64,000 bases of DNA, from the NCBI GenBank assembly GCA_003216775.1, contig QCII01000005.1:1-64000 (forward strand), given 5' to 3'. The position numbers and the translations under genes were made by a program. The notes under the pieces were generated by a model. It was given only the letters and a program-made list of their open reading frames with translations, was not told the DNA's origin and ran no database searches. This DNA comes from Prochlorococcus sp. AG-402-K21. Its GTDB lineage: Bacteria; Cyanobacteriota; Cyanobacteriia; PCC-6307; Cyanobiaceae. Positions 11,733 through 57,295 of the stretch are shown here, in pieces. Each line of letters starts with the position of its first letter. The stretch's first letter is position 1.

Positions 11733-13715
11733 ATGAATACAAAAGTTAAAAATAAATCCAAAATTATATTGCAATTACAAAAATTAAGAAGATTATCGCA
11801 GCCTTTTTTCTTACCAATTGATCAAAATAATGGAATACAATTCATTTGGCTTTTAATTTCTCTTTTATTCTGCGTAGGTGGAATAGTTCTTATATCACTT
11901 ACAGGTCTAATTAATTTACTTCAAAATTTTCAACCAGAATTATTAGACAAATATTTTGGAGGTGTTATTAGCACTCTTAATACAATTTGGTCTGGGAAAT
12001 GGGGTTTAATCTTCTCTGCATTATTCGTAATAGGTTCTTCAAGTTTTTTTAGTTTTAGGCATCAACTAAAAGCAAAAAGGTGGATTCACTGGATTTTGTT
12101 AGGAGTAATTGTATTGATGCTGCTAGCAATTAATGGTATTAACGCAGGGATTGGTTTTATTGCGCGAGATTTAACTAATGCACTAGTTCAAAAAGAACAA
12201 GATGGCTTCTACAGAATTTTAGCTATATACGCATCATGCTTTATTTTTGCTTTACCAATAAGAGCGCTACAAATTTTCTTTACTTTAAAATTGAGCATTA
12301 TTTGGAGAGAATGGTTGTCAAAAAGTCTGATCAGCCAGTATCTCACTAACAGAGCTTATTTTAAGCTTAATCCGAATGATGAGCAAGCAACTGATGTTGA
12401 CAACCCCGATCAGCGAATCTCTGAAGATACAAAATCTTTCACTGAGCAAAGTTTAACTTTCACAATTGGTATATTTGATGCAATTTTAACCTTTTCTCTT
12501 AATATTCTCATCCTTTATACTATCAGTCGAACATTAACCTTTTCCCTATTTACATTTGCTGCAATAGCTTCTTCACTTCTTATATACGCAGGAAAAAGAT
12601 TAGTTAAAATTAATTTTGATCAATTAAGATATGAGGCTGATTTTAGATATGGCTTAGTTCACATAAGAAATAACTCCGAAGCAATTGCGTTTTATTCAGG
12701 AGAATATCCAGAGAATGTAGAAAATCAAAGAAGATTAGGTGTTTTAGTGAAAAATTTCAATTTACTCATTATATGGAAAACAATAATTTTTACAATGAAA
12801 AGATCGACTAATTATGCTGGAGTATTTTTTCCCTATTTAATCATGGCCGTCCCATATTTCACTGGAACTATTGATTACGGTAAGTTTGTTCAAGCAAATT
12901 TTGCATTTAATATGGTTGAAGGATCTCTATTTTTTATAGTTAATCAAATAGATGAACTTGCAAAATTTACTGCGGGGATTAGCAGGTTAGAAGGGTTTCA
13001 ATCTGAGGTTGAATTAATAAGTAAAGAAAAACCATTACAAAATAATATCTCTATTACTAACAAACCAGAAATACTTATTAAAAATGCTGATTTGTTCACT
13101 CCTGGATCTAAGAATCCCATCATTAAAGATCTGAGCTTAAATATTAATAATACTGATACTCTTTTAATTACTGGCCCTTCAGGTTGTGGTAAGACATCAC
13201 TATTGAGAATGATTAGTGGTTTGTGGCAACCTGATAGAGGATTAATAAAAAAGCCAAAAACAGGTGATTTACTTTTTATCCCGCAAAAACCATATATGAT
13301 TTTAGGTTCGCTAAGAGAACAACTATGTTATCCAACTGATGTCAGCAAGTTTAGTGACGATCACCTATTCTCTGTGCTTAAGGAAGTTAATTTAAATTCT
13401 ATTCTTGCTAGATATCCGGATCTTGATATAAAGCAAGATTGGCAAAGAATACTTTCTCTTGGAGAACAACAAAGACTGGCTTTTGCGAGACTTTTGCTAA
13501 ATTCTCCACAATTTGCAGTGCTGGATGAAGCAACTAGTGCATTAGATATTGAAACAGAGAAATATCTTTATAGTTTATTGATAAAAAGAGAACTTTCTCT
13601 GATAAGTGTTGGCCATCGCCCAACACTGAAAGAATTTCATAATAACGTGTTAGCTTTAAACGGTAAAGGTAGCTGGCAATTGTTACCTACAAAAAACTAT
13701 AATTTTGATAACTAA
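11733..13715 (+). CDS. ABC transporter, fused permease and ATPase (SbmA/BacA-like, ABCD subfamily)
   Basis: A 660-residue half-transporter. About residues 30-430 hold the transmembrane domain of the SbmA_BacA type, including the characteristic WREWLSKSLISQYL and NPDQRISEDTKSFTEQSL motifs. The C-terminal ATPase has Walker A GPSGCGKTS, signature LSLGEQQR and Walker B FAVLDEATSALD. Relatives carry peptide antibiotics, cobalamin or very-long-chain fatty acyl groups; the cargo here is unknown. The hli gene begins 9 nt after the stop, suggesting one transcript. Confidence 0.88.
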   Translation: MNTKVKNKSKIILQLQKLRRLSQPFFLPIDQNNGIQFIWLLISLLFCVGGIVLISLTGLINLLQNFQPELLDKYFGGVISTLNTIWSGKWGLIFSALFVIGSSSFFSFRHQLKAKRWIHWILLGVIVLMLLAINGINAGIGFIARDLTNALVQKEQDGFYRILAIYASCFIFALPIRALQIFFTLKLSIIWREWLSKSLISQYLTNRAYFKLNPNDEQATDVDNPDQRISEDTKSFTEQSLTFTIGIFDAILTFSLNILILYTISRTLTFSLFTFAAIASSLLIYAGKRLVKINFDQLRYEADFRYGLVHIRNNSEAIAFYSGEYPENVENQRRLGVLVKNFNLLIIWKTIIFTMKRSTNYAGVFFPYLIMAVPYFTGTIDYGKFVQANFAFNMVEGSLFFIVNQIDELAKFTAGISRLEGFQSEVELISKEKPLQNNISITNKPEILIKNADLFTPGSKNPIIKDLSLNINNTDTLLITGPSGCGKTSLLRMISGLWQPDRGLIKKPKTGDLLFIPQKPYMILGSLREQLCYPTDVSKFSDDHLFSVLKEVNLNSILARYPDLDIKQDWQRILSLGEQQRLAFARLLLNSPQFAVLDEATSALDIETEKYLYSLLIKRELSLISVGHRPTLKEFHNNVLALNGKGSWQLLPTKNYNFDN

Positions 13716-13724
13716 AGTACTTTT

Positions 13725-50588: not shown

Positions 50589-50966
50589 TTATTGAGCAAC
50601 ATAACATTTACCAGAGGTAGGAATTTCTGTATTGTATTCTAGATTAATTGACGAGTAGGACTCTATAAAATTTAACTTTTTCTTATCAATGATCGTTATA
50701 AATAAATCTGGATAATTATATGTTCTGGTTAATATAATAAATCCACTAGTCTCCTTAAGGATTGAATGATCACCTTGACCATATTTATTAGTTTTTACAA
50801 AAACATTACCTGCTCTCTTGTAAGTTTTCGTCTCAACTTCACCAGGCCTGCCATGACTAGAAAGTTCAGCAGAACAAATATATTTTTCAGCAATTGCACT
50901 TTTTATAAACAAAATAGAAAAAACTTTAAATAATAAAAATCCAATAAAAGCAGTTCTTTTTTTCAT
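50589..50966 (-). CDS. Small secreted protein with shared MKKRTAFIG leader, two-Cys type (125 aa)
   Basis: Begins MKKRTAFIG like four other genes in this island, then a hydrophobic leader ending KSAIA, likely signal peptidase site before EKYIC. The mature ~99 residues are beta-rich, with one Cys near the start (KYICSAEL) and one at the end (SGKCYVAQ). The same two-Cys layout appears in the genes at 51192, 52763 and 54243. Promoter block present upstream. Function unknown; periplasmic or surface location expected. Confidence 0.65.
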   Translation of the reverse strand: MKKRTAFIGFLLFKVFSILFIKSAIAEKYICSAELSSHGRPGEVETKTYKRAGNVFVKTNKYGQGDHSILKETSGFIILTRTYNYPDLFITIIDKKKLNFIESYSSINLEYNTEIPTSGKCYVAQ

Positions 50967-51050
50967 ATCACAATTTACTTTTAATCAATATAACAACTTT
51001 AGAGAGAACAGACTTTATACGATTTCTCTTGAGCGACGTTCGATTAGGTC
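50967..51050 (-). promoter_or_regulatory. Island promoter block, copy 1
   Basis: On the minus strand: a degraded -35 TCGAAC (51038-51043), an 18-bp spacer containing CGCTCAAGAGAAATCG, -10 TATAAA (51014-51019), then the shared UTR of the TTTACTTTTAAT type before the ATG. The spacer palindrome is partly decayed (GCTCAAGAGA). No TGACAAA repeats here. Confidence 0.6.
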
Positions 51051-51191
51051 AACTAAAACCTAAGCAAAACAAATGAAATAAATCCTCTTTAATTTTTATT
51101 GTAATTATTGTTAACTAATTTTAGATAATAAATTATTTACTTTAAATTAATTTTTACTTTGTACTTTTCTTTAATCACTATTTTATAAAAA

Positions 51192-51587
51192 TTATTTTCT
51201 TTGGCACTTAAAAAATTCATTATAGAATTTACCATCGGGATAATGTCCAGTATTTAAAAGATTATTTTCTTCTAAAAAAATTGTTTGAGTACTTGTATTG
51301 CTTGCATAATTTGTATATGAAATTATTCTTTTATTTTTCCACATAACTACATTATTGAAACGATTAGGTTTAAATTGCTCCCTATTACTTAATGGACCTG
51401 AAGAAATAAAAAAAACAGTTTTTTTAATAGGATTAACATTAAGCAGCATTGTGAAATTCTTATCCCCTATACAATCAAGTAAAAATTCACTTTTTTTTGA
51501 ATTCTCATTACTACTGCAACTAATCATAAACTGGGAACTTAAAACCAAAAAAATGAATGAACCTAGTAACTTAAACCTTATTTTCAT
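51192..51587 (-). CDS. Putative lipoprotein, two-Cys type (131 aa)
   Basis: The N-terminus MKIRFKLLGSFIFLVLSSQFMISC has a basic start, hydrophobic core and lipobox-like MISC, so lipid attachment at Cys24 is plausible. After a Ser/Asn/Lys linker, a beta-rich domain runs from LLDCIGDKNF to the terminal FFKCQRK, again with one early and one late Cys. Unlike its neighbours it lacks the MKKRTA leader, but its promoter is of the same family. Unknown function. Confidence 0.62.
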   Translation of the reverse strand: MKIRFKLLGSFIFLVLSSQFMISCSSNENSKKSEFLLDCIGDKNFTMLLNVNPIKKTVFFISSGPLSNREQFKPNRFNNVVMWKNKRIISYTNYASNTSTQTIFLEENNLLNTGHYPDGKFYNEFFKCQRK

Positions 51588-51599
51588 CTGGCATTAAAC

Positions 51600-51662
51600 T
51601 TTTTTTAATATACCAAATCTAGAAAAATAAACTTTATATGATTTCTCATAAGAGATTTATTC
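51600..51662 (-). promoter_or_regulatory. Island promoter block, copy 2 (upstream of the lipoprotein)
   Basis: Minus strand: palindrome-like TCTCTTATGAGA (51644-51655), AAATCA, -10 TATAAA (51633-51638), then TTTGGTATATTAA as in the other copies. The -35 (GAATAA, 51657-51662) is weak and it abuts the stop of the TPR gene. Confidence 0.55.
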
Positions 51663-51666
51663 ATCT

Positions 51667-52245
51667 TTAACATTGATCTCTTACCCACTTAGCAGCAACA
51701 TTATTGGGCGATAGATATGCTGACTGTCTCCAATCTGAACAAGCGCCTTTTAAATCTCCAATTTTTTCCTTAGTAATTCCGCGATTATAGTATGCATCAC
51801 TATCTCTAGGATTAATTTCTATTGCTTTTGAATAGTCAGAAATCGCTCCATAATAATCTCCAATTTCATCCTTGTTCCAACCGCGATTATAGTATGCATC
51901 ACTATATTTAGAATTAATTTCTATTGCTTTTGAATAGTCAGAAATCGCTCCATAATAATCTTTTAATTGTTCTTTATTCCATCCACGATTAAAGTATGCC
52001 TGAGTAAATTTAGGATTAATTTCTATTGCTTTTGAATAGTCAGAAATCGCTCCATAATGATCACCTTTTTCTCCCTTATCATAAGCACTATTAAAATAAT
52101 AAGAATTATCCCGTGCATGTATCTTTTCAGAACCTAAGAGCATCAATCCTGTAGTTGATAAAACAACACCGGTTTTAATAATTAAAGGTTGCCATAGAGG
52201 AATTAAAGATAATATTGCACCAATAAAAGCAGTTCGTTTTTTCAT
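51667..52245 (-). CDS. Secreted TPR protein with shared leader (192 aa)
   Basis: Leader MKKRTAFIGAILSLIPLWQP with two hydrophobic stretches and a likely signal-peptide end at KIHA. It is followed by four TPR units (about 47-182) built on DYYGAISDYSKAIEINP. The C-terminus GDLKGACSDWRQSAYLS...WVRDQC is shared with the TPR proteins at 53433 and 54823. The repeats are also nearly identical at DNA level (102-bp period), pointing to recent expansion. It probably acts as a periplasmic protein-interaction scaffold. Confidence 0.78.
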   Translation of the reverse strand: MKKRTAFIGAILSLIPLWQPLIIKTGVVLSTTGLMLLGSEKIHARDNSYYFNSAYDKGEKGDHYGAISDYSKAIEINPKFTQAYFNRGWNKEQLKDYYGAISDYSKAIEINSKYSDAYYNRGWNKDEIGDYYGAISDYSKAIEINPRDSDAYYNRGITKEKIGDLKGACSDWRQSAYLSPNNVAAKWVRDQC

Positions 52246-52325
52246 TTAAAAATCATCTTTCAATAAATATATCAACTGGAGAGAAAACAGACTTCATACT
52301 ATTTCTCTAAAGAGACAGCAAAAAG
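52246..52325 (-). promoter_or_regulatory. Island promoter block, copy 3
   Basis: Minus strand: -35 TTGCTG (52316-52321), spacer with TCTCTTTAGAGA, -10 TATGAA (52293-52298), then GTCTGTTTTCTCTCCAGTTG and the second UTR type (ATTGAAAGATGATTTTT) before the ATG. Confidence 0.6.
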
Positions 52326-52382
52326 GTACTGCGTAAAACAAAATTAAAACCATCATTTTTTTATCAAATTCTTTAATTTTTC

Positions 52383-52745
52383 TTAATCACTAGCGTCTTT
52401 TAGTTTATGAATCATACGATGACGATTTGAAAATAAAACAACAAAATCTTTTTTAGTTAGCTTTCTAGTCTCAACCTTTTTTAATTCCGACATTGGAGCT
52501 AAATGATTTGCTTCAATATATTCTTTACCGATATCTCCATAAATTTGTTGGCAATCAAAATTACAACTTTGACAAAGAAATCCAAGTTTTTTTAATTTGT
52601 GTACTACTTGGTCTTTCAATTAAATAATGAACTTTTTCTTATATGTATCTTCAATAGTGATATTCTCATTATATTCTTAACCAATTAAAAAATTATCACT
52701 ATCTCTACCGCCTCGAAAAAATAACCTTTTATAAGCATCAAGCAT
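52383..52745 (-). pseudogene. Decayed HNH endonuclease relic
   Basis: The open part (52383-52619, TTG start) encodes LGFLCQSCNFDCQQIYGDIGKEYIEANHLAPMSELKK...DFVVLFSNRHRMIHKL, the C-terminal HNH domain of a family in which one expects an AHH or VHH motif and a CxNCH. Here ANH and FSNRH replace them, so the active His and both late zinc cysteines are gone. Upstream in the same frame two stop codons interrupt protein-like sequence (MLDAYKRLFFRGGRDSDNF and EYNENITIEDTYKKKF). I read it as a truncated, inactivated gene. Confidence 0.6.
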
Positions 52746-52762
52746 AGTGTGAAGATTATCTA

Positions 52763-53227
52763 CTACCTCTTGAAACACTTTCCATAATAAAGTGAAAAAG
52801 AATACCCACGTTCATCATTCATATGGTTTGCTGTTGTTACTTTACCCGTGCTTAAATCTAAAGTTAATGAACCTGCAGAAAGACCACCTTGTTCACTACG
52901 CATGTCATCCTCAAAAGCAACTATTTTGTTCTTGTCATATGTTGATATTAAATAAGTCCAATTGAGTGGATAATTCTTACCTTTGTAAAAGAAATTAGAT
53001 CGACGAACTAATACATTATTTTTATAATCAATTTCTAAAGTCCAAGTCTGATTGTTTAAGTCTTGCCAATAATCATTCCCCCAGCCCTTTATATGAGTTT
53101 TCATATCACATGTTAATTTGATATTTTGAGCATTTACTTTCTCAGAAAATACTAAAGAATTAAGATTAATTAATACACTTACTGGAATATAAAATTTATA
53201 AAAATATTTTCTTAATTGGTTGAACAC
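52763..53227 (-). CDS. Secreted hypothetical protein, two-Cys type (154 aa)
   Basis: Residues 1-34 form a signal peptide (hydrophobic IPVSVLINLNSLVF, cut after KVNA). The mature domain starts QNIKLTCDMKTH and ends SLYYGKCFKR, with one Cys near each end, beta-rich and Trp/Tyr-rich (GWGNDYWQDLNNQTWTLEID). The layout matches the small two-Cys proteins at 50589, 51192 and 54243. It has neither the MKKRTA leader nor the promoter block. Function unknown. Confidence 0.62.
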   Translation of the reverse strand: MFNQLRKYFYKFYIPVSVLINLNSLVFSEKVNAQNIKLTCDMKTHIKGWGNDYWQDLNNQTWTLEIDYKNNVLVRRSNFFYKGKNYPLNWTYLISTYDKNKIVAFEDDMRSEQGGLSAGSLTLDLSTGKVTTANHMNDERGYSFSLYYGKCFKR

Positions 53228-53432
53228 AATTTTTAAAAAATAAATAACTCTTAAAAAGAAATTTAATAGTAATTAATTTCTTCATGAAGAGGGGAAAAAT
53301 ATTTTGCAACAAACCCTCAACTAACTTAAACCCATAATTGTTTATACTTTTGAACGATATTTATTGATCTTCCATTCTTTATATTTCACGGTTGTGATTT
53401 ATGAACTAATTGTAGAGAATTAGTATTCATCT

Positions 53433-54008
53433 CTAACATTGATCTCTTACCCATTTTGCAGCAGGAGTATTGGGAGATAGAGAGTCTGTCTTTATCCAAT
53501 CTGAACACGCACCTTTTAAATCACCAATCTCTTTCTTGACAATGCCACGATTGCCATATGCCTGATATAAATTTGGATTAATTTCTATCGCTTTTGTATA
53601 GTCAGATATCGCTCCGTAATAATCTTTTAAATCACTTTTAGCAATGCCACGATTGTAATAAGCATCATCACTAGGATTAATTTCTATCGCTTTTGTATAG
53701 TCAGATATCGCTCCATAAATATCATTTAGTCTTTTTTTTGCATTGCCACGATTGTAATAAGAATCATCGTCACTAGGATTAAGTTCTATCGCTTTTGTAT
53801 AGTCAGATATCGCTCCATAATCATCACCGTTTTTTGACTTTTCCAAACCACGTTTAAAATAAAAATAAGCACTCTTTGCATTCGCTTTTTCGGGCATAGA
53901 AATCATCAAACCTGCAGTTGATAAAACCACACCCGTTTTAATAATTAAAGGTTGACCTAGTGAAATTAAAGATAATATTGCACCAATAAAAGCAGTTCTT
54001 TTTTTCAT
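53433..54008 (-). CDS. Secreted TPR protein with shared leader (191 aa)
   Basis: Leader MKKRTAFIGAILSLISLGQP, very similar to the gene at 51667, with signal-peptide end KANA. It has four TPR-like units (about 47-180) based on DYYGAISDYTKAIEINP, then GDLKGACSDWIKTDSLSPNTPAAKWVRDQC. The downstream tail (53371-53432) recurs after the TPR gene at 54823. Clearly a duplicate of its island neighbours. Confidence 0.78.
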   Translation of the reverse strand: MKKRTAFIGAILSLISLGQPLIIKTGVVLSTAGLMISMPEKANAKSAYFYFKRGLEKSKNGDDYGAISDYTKAIELNPSDDDSYYNRGNAKKRLNDIYGAISDYTKAIEINPSDDAYYNRGIAKSDLKDYYGAISDYTKAIEINPNLYQAYGNRGIVKKEIGDLKGACSDWIKTDSLSPNTPAAKWVRDQC

Positions 54009-54113
54009 ATCAAAATTTACTTTTAATTAATATACCAACTGTAGAGAAAACAGACTTTCTACGATTTCTCTTAAGAGACTGTCAATTAGGTCTATGACAA
54101 ACCCGTGACAAAC
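54009..54113 (-). promoter_or_regulatory. Island promoter block, copy 4, with upstream direct repeats
   Basis: Minus strand: direct repeat TTTGTCA-CGGG-TTTGTCA (54095-54113 on the plus strand reads TGACAAACCCGTGACAAAC), a 9-bp gap, -35 TTGACA (54080-54085), an 18-bp spacer carrying TCTCTTAAGAGA (54067-54078), -10 TAGAAA (54056-54061), then GTCTGTTTTCTCTACAGTTGG and the UTR. Confidence 0.68.
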
Positions 54114-54242
54114 TTAAGAATTCCATTCTTTATATTTTTCTTTGTAATTAGATGAACTAATTGTAGAGAATACGTATTGGTTAAAAAGAATAAATCCAAA
54201 CTTGATTTACAAACAATTTAATAACCAACTTTTAAACTAATT

Positions 54243-54647
54243 TCAATCACTTACTTTACAAGGACCAGATATTATTTCGCTGTCATTTCCTGGACTTAGA
54301 GCAACCATTGAAAAGATTTTTTTATCTTTATCATAAGAAACTGCGTAATAATTTTCCATATCTGGCATATAAGAATAATACAAATGTATTTTCCTATTAT
54401 TTTCATCAATAATTTGATAAATACCTGTATCCGGACTATTGAATATTTTGCCTTGTCTATATGTAATAAATTTTTCAGTTTTCCCTGCAAATTGGTATTT
54501 ACACGACCAAGTCTCTGCTTTTGCATTTTGAGGAAATGGAATAGTTAGTATTAAAGTTGTAAAAAAAGTACCTGTAACTTTCAAAATCGTTCTACAAAAA
54601 GGTAAAACCTTTTGTGAATGAAAAACTAAAGCAGTTCGTTTTTTCAT
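54243..54647 (-). CDS. Small secreted protein with MKKRTA start, two-Cys type (134 aa)
   Basis: Shares only MKKRTA with the other leaders, then diverges (LVFHSQKVLPF) into its own hydrophobic signal ending QNAKA. The mature part starts ETWSCKYQFAGK and ends SGPCKVSD, beta-rich, with one Cys at each end. Promoter and UTR are near-identical to the TPR neighbours, so the homology break falls just after the start codon. Function unknown. Confidence 0.65.
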   Translation of the reverse strand: MKKRTALVFHSQKVLPFCRTILKVTGTFFTTLILTIPFPQNAKAETWSCKYQFAGKTEKFITYRQGKIFNSPDTGIYQIIDENNRKIHLYYSYMPDMENYYAVSYDKDKKIFSMVALSPGNDSEIISGPCKVSD

Positions 54648-54752
54648 CTAAAAATCATCTTTCAATAAATATACCAACTGTAGAGACAATAGACTATCTA
54701 CGATTTCTCTTAAGAGACGGTCAATTAGGTTCGTGACAAACCCGTGACAAAC
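54648..54752 (-). promoter_or_regulatory. Island promoter block, copy 5, with upstream direct repeats
   Basis: Minus strand: direct repeat at 54734-54752, a 9-bp gap, -35 TTGACC (54719-54724), an 18-bp spacer with TCTCTTAAGAGA, -10 TAGATA (54695-54700), and the second UTR type. Upstream lies a ~50-bp segment also found upstream of copy 4 (54121-54172 and 54761-54812). Confidence 0.68.
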
Positions 54753-54822
54753 CGAAGACTTCCATTCTTTATATTTTTCTTTGTAATTAGATGAACTAAT
54801 TGTAGAGAATTAGTATTCATCT

Positions 54823-55503
54823 CTAACATTGATTTCTTACCCATTCTGCAGTGCTTTCATTCCCTAAAGAAGATGCTTTTCTCCAATCATCACATGCACC
54901 TTTCATATCTCCTAAATTTTCCTTTGCAACGCCTCTATTTAAGTAAGCACTTGAATAATTTGGATCGATTTCGATTGCTTTCGTTGCATAAAATATTGCT
55001 CCATAATTATCATTAATTTCTTTATTCCTTTTTATGTATGAGATATTATTGTATGCATCTAATTTTTGTGGATTAATTTCTATCGACTTTTTATAATCAG
55101 ATATCGCTCCATAATAATCTTTTAATTTTCTTTTAGAAATTCCACGATTGTAATAAGCACTCTCATTAGGATTAATTTCTATTGCTTTAGTGTAATCAGA
55201 TATCGATCCGTAATAATCTTTTAATTTTGCTTTGTTCCATCCACGATTATAGAATGCATAATCATCATAAGGATTAATTTCTATCGCTTTCGAGAAATCA
55301 GAAATCGCTCCATAATAATCTCCTTTTTTTGATTTTTCATAACCTCTATCAAAAAAAAACTTAGAAGTTTCTGCATTTACTTTTTCAGTAACAGATATAA
55401 TCAAACCTGCCGTTGATAAAACTAAACCTGTTTTAATTAATAATGGTTGCCCTAATGGGATGAAAGATAATATTACACCAATAAAAGCAGTTCGTTTTTT
55501 CAT
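54823..55503 (-). CDS. Secreted TPR protein with shared leader (226 aa)
   Basis: Leader MKKRTAFIGVILSFIPLGQP with signal-peptide end KVNA, then five TPR units (about 47-215), the fourth with an irregular insertion (NNISYIKRNKEINDN). The C-terminus GDMKGACDDWRKASSLGNESTAEWVRNQC matches its paralogues. It is the longest of the three TPR genes and the last before guaA. Exported scaffold or binding role inferred from TPRs plus signal peptide. Confidence 0.78.
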   Translation of the reverse strand: MKKRTAFIGVILSFIPLGQPLLIKTGLVLSTAGLIISVTEKVNAETSKFFFDRGYEKSKKGDYYGAISDFSKAIEINPYDDYAFYNRGWNKAKLKDYYGSISDYTKAIEINPNESAYYNRGISKRKLKDYYGAISDYKKSIEINPQKLDAYNNISYIKRNKEINDNYGAIFYATKAIEIDPNYSSAYLNRGVAKENLGDMKGACDDWRKASSLGNESTAEWVRNQC

Positions 55504-55607
55504 ATCAGAATTTACTTTTAATTAATATACCAACTGTAGAGAAAATAGACTTTATACGATTTATCTTAAGAGATAGTCAATTAGGTCAATGACAAACCCG
55601 TGACAAA
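55504..55607 (-). promoter_or_regulatory. Island promoter block, copy 6, with upstream direct repeats
   Basis: Minus strand: direct repeat at 55590-55607, a 9-bp gap, -35 TTGACT (55575-55580), an 18-bp spacer with ATCTCTTAAGATAAATCG, -10 TATAAA (55551-55556). This copy has the best -35/-10 pair. Confidence 0.7.
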
Positions 55608-55650: not shown

Positions 55651-55669
55651 TGACAAACCCGTGACAAAC
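55651..55669. repeat. Additional TGACAAA direct-repeat pair
   Basis: TGACAAACCCGTGACAAAC, identical to the elements at 54095 and 54734, but 71 bp beyond the copy-6 -35 and with no promoter of its own visible. It lies between the guaA 3' end and the last island gene. Confidence 0.6.
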
Positions 55670-55708: not shown

Positions 55709-57295
55709 TTATTCCCACTCAATAGTTCCGGGAGGTTTACTTGTAATATCATAAACAACTCTATTAACTAAAACTACCTCGTTAACGATTCTATTAGAAA
55801 TTCTCTCTAAGGTTTGAAAAGGTATTTTTGACCAGTCTGCTGTCATACCATCTTCACTAGACACGCAACGCAAAACTATTGGCCATGCATAAGTCCTTTT
55901 ATCTCCCATAACTCCTACTGTTTTAACTGGTAACAATACTGCAAAAGCTTGCCAAATATCATCATAAAGGCCTGCTTTTTTAATTTCATCTCTCACTATC
56001 CAGTCTGCATCTCTTAAACAATCGAGTTTTTCACTCGTAACTTCCCCCAAGATTCTAATCGCTAATCCTGGTCCTGGAAAAGGATGCCTTTTTATAATTT
56101 CATTAGGCAAACCTAATGCAGCTCCCAAATTACGGACTTCATCTTTAAAAAGTTTTCTTAAAGGCTCAACTAATTTAAATTGTAAATCTTTTGGTAATCC
56201 ACCCACATTATGATGACTCTTTATTTTTACAGCTATTCTTTCTCCTGTCTTAGGATCAATATTAGTACCAGCACTTTCAATAACATCGGGATAAAGCGTT
56301 CCTTGAGCTAAGTACTGAAAAGGTCCTAATCTATTACTTTCTTCTTCGAATACTCTAATAAATTCTTCACCAATGATTTTCCTTTTTTGTTCTGGATCTG
56401 TAATTCCTTTTAATTTGGCAATAAACCGTTCCCTCGCATTAATATATTCCACCTTTATATGAAATTTCTTATCAAAAAAATTCATTAAAAATTCCGGTTC
56501 ACCTTTTCTCATGAAACCTTGATCTATAAACATGCATGTAAGCTGATTGCCAATTGCTTTATTAAGAAGAAAAGCAAGAGTGGAGGAATCAACCCCTCCT
56601 GACAAGGCAAGCAAAACTTTCTTATTAACAACTTGCTCTCTTATGCGGGGAATAGTTTCCTCTAAATAGGTTTCAGTTGTCCAATCAGCCTCACAACTAG
56701 AAATTTTATAAACAAAATTTTTAATCACCGTCATCCCGAACTCTGAATGAATAACTTCAGGATGAAATTGTACGCCAAATAATTTCTTTATATCATTTGA
56801 TATAGCTGCGTGGAGTGTGTTTTCTGTATGAGCAATTTTATTAAATCCATCAGGTAAATAATTAATTGAATCGCCGTGACTCATCCACATTATAGATTTA
56901 TCTTCTACATCAGAAAGTAGGTCAGATTTGTGATCAATTTTTATTGGTGCTCTACCATATTCAGCTTTTTTAGTTGCTGAAATAACAGATCCTCCAAGTT
57001 CTTTGACCATTAATTGCATTCCATAGCATATGCCAAGAATAGGAATTCCTAAATTAAAAATTTTTTCATCACATTTAGGAGCATTTTGTTCATATACAGA
57101 ATTTGGACCTCCACTCAAAATGATCCCTTTAGGATTAATGTCTTTAATATCTTCAATTGAAATACAATTGCTTACTACAAGAGAAAAAACATTAGTTTCT
57201 CGAATTCTTCTTGCAATCAATTCAGAATATTGAGATCCGAAATCTAAAATTAATATTGAAGGATCTCGTTCTTTGTTTAAAGATGTTTGACTCAT
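55709..57295 (-). CDS. guaA: GMP synthase (glutamine-hydrolysing)
   Basis: Converts XMP to GMP. The 528 residues hold a class I glutamine amidotransferase ([17 protein letters not shown], catalytic Cys in [11 protein letters not shown], His-x-Glu in VQFHPEV), an ATP pyrophosphatase domain with [14 protein letters not shown], and the C-terminal dimerisation domain ending [10 protein letters not shown]. Core gene marking the right border of the island. Confidence 0.97.

Follow-up and report, generated by a model that had tools for sequence, protein, structure and literature searches.

Promoter-like regions in a Prochlorococcus gene island very probably derive from left ends of integrative elements stacked at guaA

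Genes and repeated regions behind guaA

In this study, we revisited a gene island in the 1.64 Mb genome of Prochlorococcus sp. AG-402-K21, which lies in a 64,000 nt stretch of contig QCII01000005.1, referred to here as the window. A preliminary description of this DNA had listed six minus-strand genes, with starts at 50966, 51587, 52245, 54008, 54647 and 55503, said to carry versions of one promoter with a −35 element TTGACN, a palindrome in the spacer and a second dyad around the −10 element, and had proposed that the six are controlled together. The six open reading frames (ORFs) are all present in the ORF listing, and the regions upstream of them, numbered copies 1 to 6 from the lowest coordinate, are indeed homologous and can be aligned with each other. 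Overlooked at the time were direct repeats upstream of the palindromes, a seventh copy near position 53300 and the link to guaA, the gene for GMP synthase (55709–57295, on the minus strand like all window features given below), an ORF that also served as tblastn anchor in the loci of relatives. As argued below, the six upstream regions very probably derive from the left attachment sites (attL) of integrative elements whose target is the guaA 3′ end, where they became stacked one behind the other.

Reading downstream from guaA, the gene ends in the tail ATTGAGTGGGA (55713–55723), which contains the core GAGTGGGA and forms the core side of the first attL. It is followed by an outer pair of direct repeats, TTTGTCACGGGTTTGTCA (55651–55668), and an inner pair (55590–55607), which may be arm-type sites of an integrase. 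Copy 6 (55500–55605), delimited by alignment and profile, comprises the inner repeats, TTGACT, the palindrome (55562–55573), the dyad and the leader, and stands before a cargo gene whose product has, in addition to an MKKRTAF leader, tetratricopeptide (TPR) repeats recognized by Pfam (54823–55503). Copy 5 (54651–54810, palindrome 54706–54717) precedes a gene for a small protein with an MKKRTA leader and no Pfam match above cut-off (54243–54647), and copy 4 (54000–54173, palindrome 54067–54078) another gene of the MKKRTAF and TPR type (53433–54008, Pfam). The seventh copy (53232–53368), of the GTTG repeat class and with the palindrome TCTTCATGAAGA at 53279–53290, lies before a gene (52763–53227) whose cluster consists of six ORFs in six loci. 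Copies 1 to 3, placed by the profile, are more decayed than the other window copies. Copy 3 (52242–52339) keeps a remnant of TTACG-type repeats, the palindrome (52304–52315) and the leader in front of a third MKKRTAF and TPR gene (51667–52245, Pfam); copy 2 (51585–51655) has the palindrome (51644–51655) and the leader, with no direct repeats seen, before a gene for a 131-aa protein with, by eye, a possible lipoprotein signal (51192–51587); and copy 1 (50963–51066), with decayed direct repeats, a palindrome at 51025–51036 and the leader, precedes a gene for a small protein with an MKKRTAF leader (50589–50966). A 78-aa ORF at 52383–52619 looks by eye like part of an HNH nuclease and has no Pfam match above cut-off.

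When the copy-4 region was used as BLAST query against the same genome, copies 5, 6, 1 and 3 were matched with E values from 3e-50 to 9e-12, and the best E value beyond the guaA locus was about 0.1. Copy 2 was not recovered in this search; a hidden Markov model recovered it with an E value of 5e-8, copy 2 itself being part of the training set of that model.

The guaA site and unit ends across the genus

With 98 bases of copy 4 as query, 95 of 266 Prochlorococcus genomes gave matches at E values up to 0.01, although many of the poorest matches are short and possibly due to chance. The 18-mer TTTGTCACGGGTTTGTCA was found with at most one mismatch in 36 of the 266 genomes, its reversed control giving none among the matches listed. 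An iterated profile from 40 regions and the window gathered 99 copies; an enlarged set has 112, spread over 53 of 61 loci when the window is counted. Among the 99, every copy in a locus with a guaA end (80/80) lies downstream of guaA on the same strand, and in loci that contain both guaA and mrdA every copy (53/53) lies between the two genes; where mrdA alone is present, the five copies share its strand, and 14 copies could not be placed. The nearest copy begins 94–116 nt past guaA in 30 of 35 loci and 961–2589 nt past it in the other five. At loci L178 and L179 of genome G026, guaA and mrdA are about 0.3 Mb apart with one copy of the module each, as if a rearrangement had split the island. 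Relatives of one cargo protein came from Prochlorococcus in 31 of 77 named loci, including the 18 best, and otherwise from Synechococcus and from distant bacteria; TPR repeats are common.

The left ends in these relatives share one layout, in which the guaA tail with its GAGTGGGA core is followed by the outer repeat pair, the inner pair, the palindrome with the second dyad and the first gene. Direct-repeat pairs with an 11-bp period stand upstream of most palindromes, and it is common for guaA to be followed by two of them, spaced by about 60 bp. The repeat sequence varies from copy to copy (TTTGTCACG, TTTTACGTG, TTTCCCGTG, TTTCACATG, TTTCACGTG, GTTACACGTG, TTTGTTGCG, ATCACACA and others); the two halves of the inner repeat, compared in the best register over 112 copies, have 79% identical positions when taken from one copy and 49% when taken from different copies. 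A unit with an MKKRTAF gene, TTACG-type repeats and the palindrome was also seen in L055 (5001 onward) and L210 (7150–7290), with a tRNA-Cys gene about 1.8 kb past the start of the MKKRTAF gene. The cultured strain MIT 9302 likewise carries a gene of this sort behind such a leader (locus L063).

The guaA tail itself occurs more than once. In L182, L183 and L185–L189 a second tail lies 139–140 bp past the first with one repeat pair between them, and in other genomes an internal copy is closely preceded by a tail (at 118 and 127 nt in L131). Judged from the sequence, such duplication is the trace that integration at the 3′ end of guaA leaves. We defined a unit as the stretch between consecutive guaA tails and compared the repeat class that follows its first tail with the one preceding its second, leaving out of the counts those tails that had no class on the side needed. 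We show here that the two ends of a unit usually match: the classes are equal in 50 of 61 units, and in 43 of 54 once the seven scars of 139–140 bp are dropped, since both search windows overlap there and the match is trivial. Across a single guaA tail, which is where one element adjoins a different one, the classes agreed in 4 of 41 cases with all labels kept; with ambiguous labels dropped, 43 of 51 unit ends matched versus 4 of 38 across a tail. Permuting the labels gave a mean of 8.0 matches, and 43 was reached in none of 50000 trials. The 43 matched units measure 713–8327 bp (median 1733), 12 of them less than 1 kb. The repeat pairs at right ends (attR) are followed by the guaA tail and not by the palindrome leader.

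The contents of the units are varied. A unit in L206 with matched CACA-type ends carries an MKKRTAF and TPR protein (12394–13716) with a C-terminal HEIGHALGLEH, by eye the zinc motif of a metalloprotease, and a small secreted-looking protein of NNPYDRDTYRQ repeats (L206:11537–11845, minus strand) lies between tails, in a stretch that ends in a GTTG-type repeat. A 977-aa restriction-helicase protein (L149:3831–6764, minus strand) and a C-5 cytosine methylase (L163:8248–9156, plus strand) are also genes of guaA islands, and to judge from these two some units may carry phage defence.

In the window, the first left end beside guaA has both repeat pairs, and no internal guaA tail was found in the island at up to one mismatch, so that guaA's own tail alone remains. 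The inner sites are chimeric instead. The stretch 54810–54731 of copy 5 is attR-like and identical at 80 of 80 positions to the attR seen in L127 and L139 units; the stretch 54755–54651 is attL-like, agreeing at 95 of 105 positions with the attL of L139, the two halves overlapping at the repeat pair 54734–54751. Copy 4 agrees at 76 of 79 positions with the attR of L127 and at 106 of 113 with the attL of L139, the overlap again being the repeat pair, and the seventh copy (53368–53232) has the same build (62/67 to the attR of L130, 82/96 to the attL of L135). By these comparisons copies 4, 5 and the seventh are fused sites, with an attR as left half and an attL as right half joined at the repeats, and units in the window that are bounded by such inner sites have no separate ends.

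Integrases, the gene slot and the leader

In genome G114, the ORF directly behind the first left end encodes a tyrosine integrase (PF00589, 39.3 bits, cut-off 27.1). The protein has matches in eight of the 266 genomes, and the five strong ones (G114, G185, G177, G147 and G182) all lie behind guaA; the integrase gene comes directly first in four of these islands, and in G177 it is separated from the left end by about 1 kb of DNA that looks by eye to be coding. A family-wide search of 251 genomes gave 18 matches in 16 genomes; of the six best, which belong to other genera of the family, five lie behind guaA. L215, L216 and L217 contain an internal stop. Ten guaA-linked left ends with an integrase have an outer repeat pair, an inner pair and a palindrome resembling TCTC-N4-GAGA, with different repeat sequences; by eye the inner pair is degenerate in L198, L200, L202 and L215, and the palindrome is degenerate in L198, L201 and L213. 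The elements of G185 and G147 are 8.3 and 6.5 kb long, and close to the right end of each lies an ORF that resembles a serine recombinase. The N-terminus of the integrase matched no domain model; we take it to resemble an arm-binding domain. In L212, L216 and L200 longer leaders repeat GTAGAGA-like words, by eye with an 11-bp period in places, which perhaps form an array for an excision factor or a regulator. The genome of the window encodes a 392-aa tyrosine recombinase of another type (L177:1417–2595, minus strand), its sole PF00589 match at E values up to 0.001. Among viral contigs, no stretch matched the integrase patterns or one of the module patterns; a single match to another module pattern was taken as chance, and neither guaA nor mrdA nor, by eye, repeats were found there.

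A search with three integrases (tblastn, E up to 1e-4) found a match in three of the 43 matched units, which are the source elements of the queries, and none in the other 40. In all three the integrase starts 216–223 nt after the tail, and MKKRT-type starts near a left end lie 216–228 nt after it in nine of ten units (one of these nine, in L161, has its longest ORF in the opposite direction) and at 271 nt in the tenth; two further matches to the MKKRT pattern are internal to large units, at a depth of 5.3 kb. Since the integrase and the MKKRT-type starts are equidistant from the tail, the cargo gene occupies the position of the integrase and follows the same leader. Different kinds of genes, or genes on the opposite strand, are present in many other units, and at some left ends (L161, L180 and L181) a start like that of a decayed integrase is, by eye, still kept.

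The leader is the part of the site that had been read as a regulated promoter. The palindrome, as had been described, is perfect in copies 4 and 5 and has one mismatch in copies 2, 3 and 6, with two in copy 1, and the second dyad is conserved together with it in the leader common to these genes. Across relatives, TCTC-N4-GAGA is exact in 62 of 91 classed left ends (eight scars dropped) and present with at most one mismatch in 72, whereas the corresponding numbers are 0 and 3 in 90 upstream control stretches, and 1 and 30 in 455 shuffles. The half-sites of the GTTG class differ from this in concert, giving TCTTCATGAAGA or nearly so, mostly with a matching third half (by eye), for which L138 is an exception. 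The −35 element did not hold up as a consensus: TTGAC is present in copies 4–6 only, that is, in three of the six window copies, and in 23 of 112 copies overall. It was found in 17 of 26 copies with GTCA repeats, 2 of 31 with TTACG repeats, none of 35 of four other types, 3 of 19 unclassified copies and the single ambiguous one, and is a feature of a class and not of the family. In the 41 copies followed by an MKKRT-type start, ATG lies 57–59 nt past the palindrome in 40, TATATT is present in 38, TG-N-TATATT in 35, TATRAA right after the palindrome in 23 and TTGAC before it in 13; in the other 71 copies TATATT is present in 25 and TG-N-TATATT in 17. The sequence TG-N-TATATT, which in copy 4 ends about 20 nt before the ATG (TATATT at 54029–54034), appears to be a better candidate for an extended −10 element than the one proposed earlier. 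No Rfam family was found at the copies in six loci at gathering scores; a Cyano-1 RNA (L149:12911–12979) lies away from them.

A true regulon, in which one repressor or activator acts on the palindrome between −35 and −10 and controls all six genes, would account for the conserved palindrome and dyad and for the constant distance to the ATG of the MKKRT-type genes. However, the same region also stands before integrase genes, and where the next gene is on the opposite strand or no clear gene follows; TTGAC is found in a minority of copies; and the copies in the window's own genome are confined to one locus. The palindrome as a genome-wide regulator site was rejected, as at up to one mismatch it occurs in that genome at 17 places versus 14 for the reversed control, which is no clear enrichment, and both exact genomic copies of the 12-mer lie at the guaA locus. 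At up to two mismatches the window has 12 matches versus 6.9 expected, a number reached in 1 of 100 shuffles, and the 12-mer by itself is weak evidence. Joint control of the six genes is possible in so far as they share a leader, but a chromosomal regulon built on a palindromic promoter seems unlikely, since descent from the leader of an attachment site and its integrase explains the similarity. Under this descent from attL ends, the leader is likely to be the promoter region of the integrase, with an operator or an excision-factor site, which has been kept by the cargo genes and from which these would be transcribed; this is suggested by its position and conservation.

Origin of the island and its relation to known systems

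According to the explanation that we favour, integrative elements would have inserted in succession at the 3′ end of guaA and so have formed the stack downstream of it. An attL would consist of the 11-bp-period repeat pairs, as putative arm-type sites of the element's tyrosine integrase, the leader with palindrome and dyad, and the first gene, and an attR of the matching repeat pair and the duplicated guaA tail. Complete elements would carry the integrase gene first or nearly first, while most other units would have lost it or never had one, MKKRTAF units having a cargo gene in that slot; such integrase-less units would be cis-mobilizable elements (CIMEs), many with a single gene, which a cognate integrase might still move in trans. 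In the window, recombination between the right-end repeats of one element and the left-end repeats of the next would have welded neighbours together and removed the intervening guaA tails, and the sites left by this welding would be those that had been read as promoters 4 and 5.

Several observations weigh against this explanation or limit it. No integrase of the guaA-element family was found in the genome of the window. The three weak integrase matches in the genus (24–25% identity) have no guaA in the fetched stretches, nor is guaA visible at the 12 weaker matches of the family-wide search (or at the sixth best), and in the fetched stretch around the MKKRTAF unit with repeats and palindrome in L055/L210 guaA was not found. 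The ends are unlike or ambiguous in 11 of the 54 units; the words that define the repeat classes were picked after the sequences had been viewed, false tails may be among those used, and the counts are non-independent because kin genomes share elements (for example L138/L157 and L161/L181).

A history in which homologous recombination copied one gene and its promoter in tandem, with no mobile element, would fit the long DNA repeats shared by the three TPR paralogues and the similar leaders. However, guaA tails are duplicated, repeat classes are matched at unit ends, an integrase occupies the same slot and alike left ends precede different cargo, which makes this origin very improbable, even if local duplication may have added some of the window copies. 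It is less probable still that the island is an integron-like cassette array with active shuffling: serial one-gene units, each with a recombination site, do recall one, but the site is the tail of a protein gene with arm-type repeats, few stacks hold an integrase, and none of three integrases examined is of IntI type, the one of G185 scoring 19 bits with the TIGR02249 integron integrase model (cut-off 265) and the two others having no listed match. Sites with an 11-bp period are known from Pho boxes and the like, and the repeats adjoin TTGAC in the GTCA class, but a composite promoter made of sites for an OmpR-type response regulator, with the palindrome as site of a second regulator, is equally hard to credit, as there are at least eight repeat sequences, each agreeing with the other end of its own unit, and the attR pairs precede the guaA tail and not the palindrome leader.

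Serial integration at guaA thus remains the preferred reading, and it has precedents. Islands at guaA, accretion and CIMEs are already known (PMC9376610, PMC5704250). These papers describe for GIsul2 and its relatives the use of the guaA 3′ end, the core GAGTGGGA that is also present in the window (reported for GIsul2 in PMC9376610), a tyrosine integrase and a duplicated tail at the far end; in the Prochlorococcus relatives the core is likewise duplicated at the far end, and an integrase lies near guaA in 5 of 266 genomes. The units described here differ in that most have no integrase match and many are below 1 kb, often in series and with changing repeat classes, and in that their hosts are marine picocyanobacteria. 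As outlined in PMC5704250, CIMEs keep attL and attR without an integrase, and newcomers enter the attachment site that bears the end of the target gene; here one-gene units of less than 1 kb are common and MKKRTAF cargo sits in the integrase slot, with mobilization in trans as a presumed property. The tycheposons of Prochlorococcus resemble the present elements in having a tyrosine recombinase and cargo, in forming islands and in belonging to the same genus, but are given in PMC10872708 as targeting seven tRNA genes. The target here is guaA: no tRNA gene was found in the window between 44000 and 60000 or in the 20 loci L178–L197, and among 33 named loci tRNA genes are present in two (L055 and L083), neither of which has guaA.

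The attachment sites of phage lambda, attP and attL, combine a core with tandem arm-type sites, and this layout is common to both systems, with the arm-type sites putative here; the repeats, the leader palindrome and the gene order are peculiar to the guaA elements. Among top-ranked literature titles and beginnings of abstracts, a check outside which the original tycheposon report lies, there was no report of guaA islands in Prochlorococcus; PMC5974335 contains both words, guaA once.

The system described here is thus of a known kind, an accretion of CIMEs at guaA, but an unusually miniature one; its unusual features are units as small as one gene, cargo that makes use of the slot and the leader of the integrase, and repeat classes that change along the stack. 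More tentatively, we suggest that it might act as a one-gene capture system, in which cargo replaces the integrase, is expressed from the leader of the latter and owes its movement in trans to rare complete elements with an integrase that recognizes the matching repeat class, each class being a separate exchange group and newcomers bringing a ready promoter; it would then perhaps be among the smallest of its sort. With the origin proposed here, a puzzling family of promoters becomes explained, and a mechanism is offered for the variability of a chromosomal site in a marine phototroph that is abundant and has a small genome. If it is true that one-gene units move in trans, genes would be gained in pieces of less than 1 kb whose expression is supplied by the end of the element, and the repeat classes would be a direct code for which integrase moves which unit.

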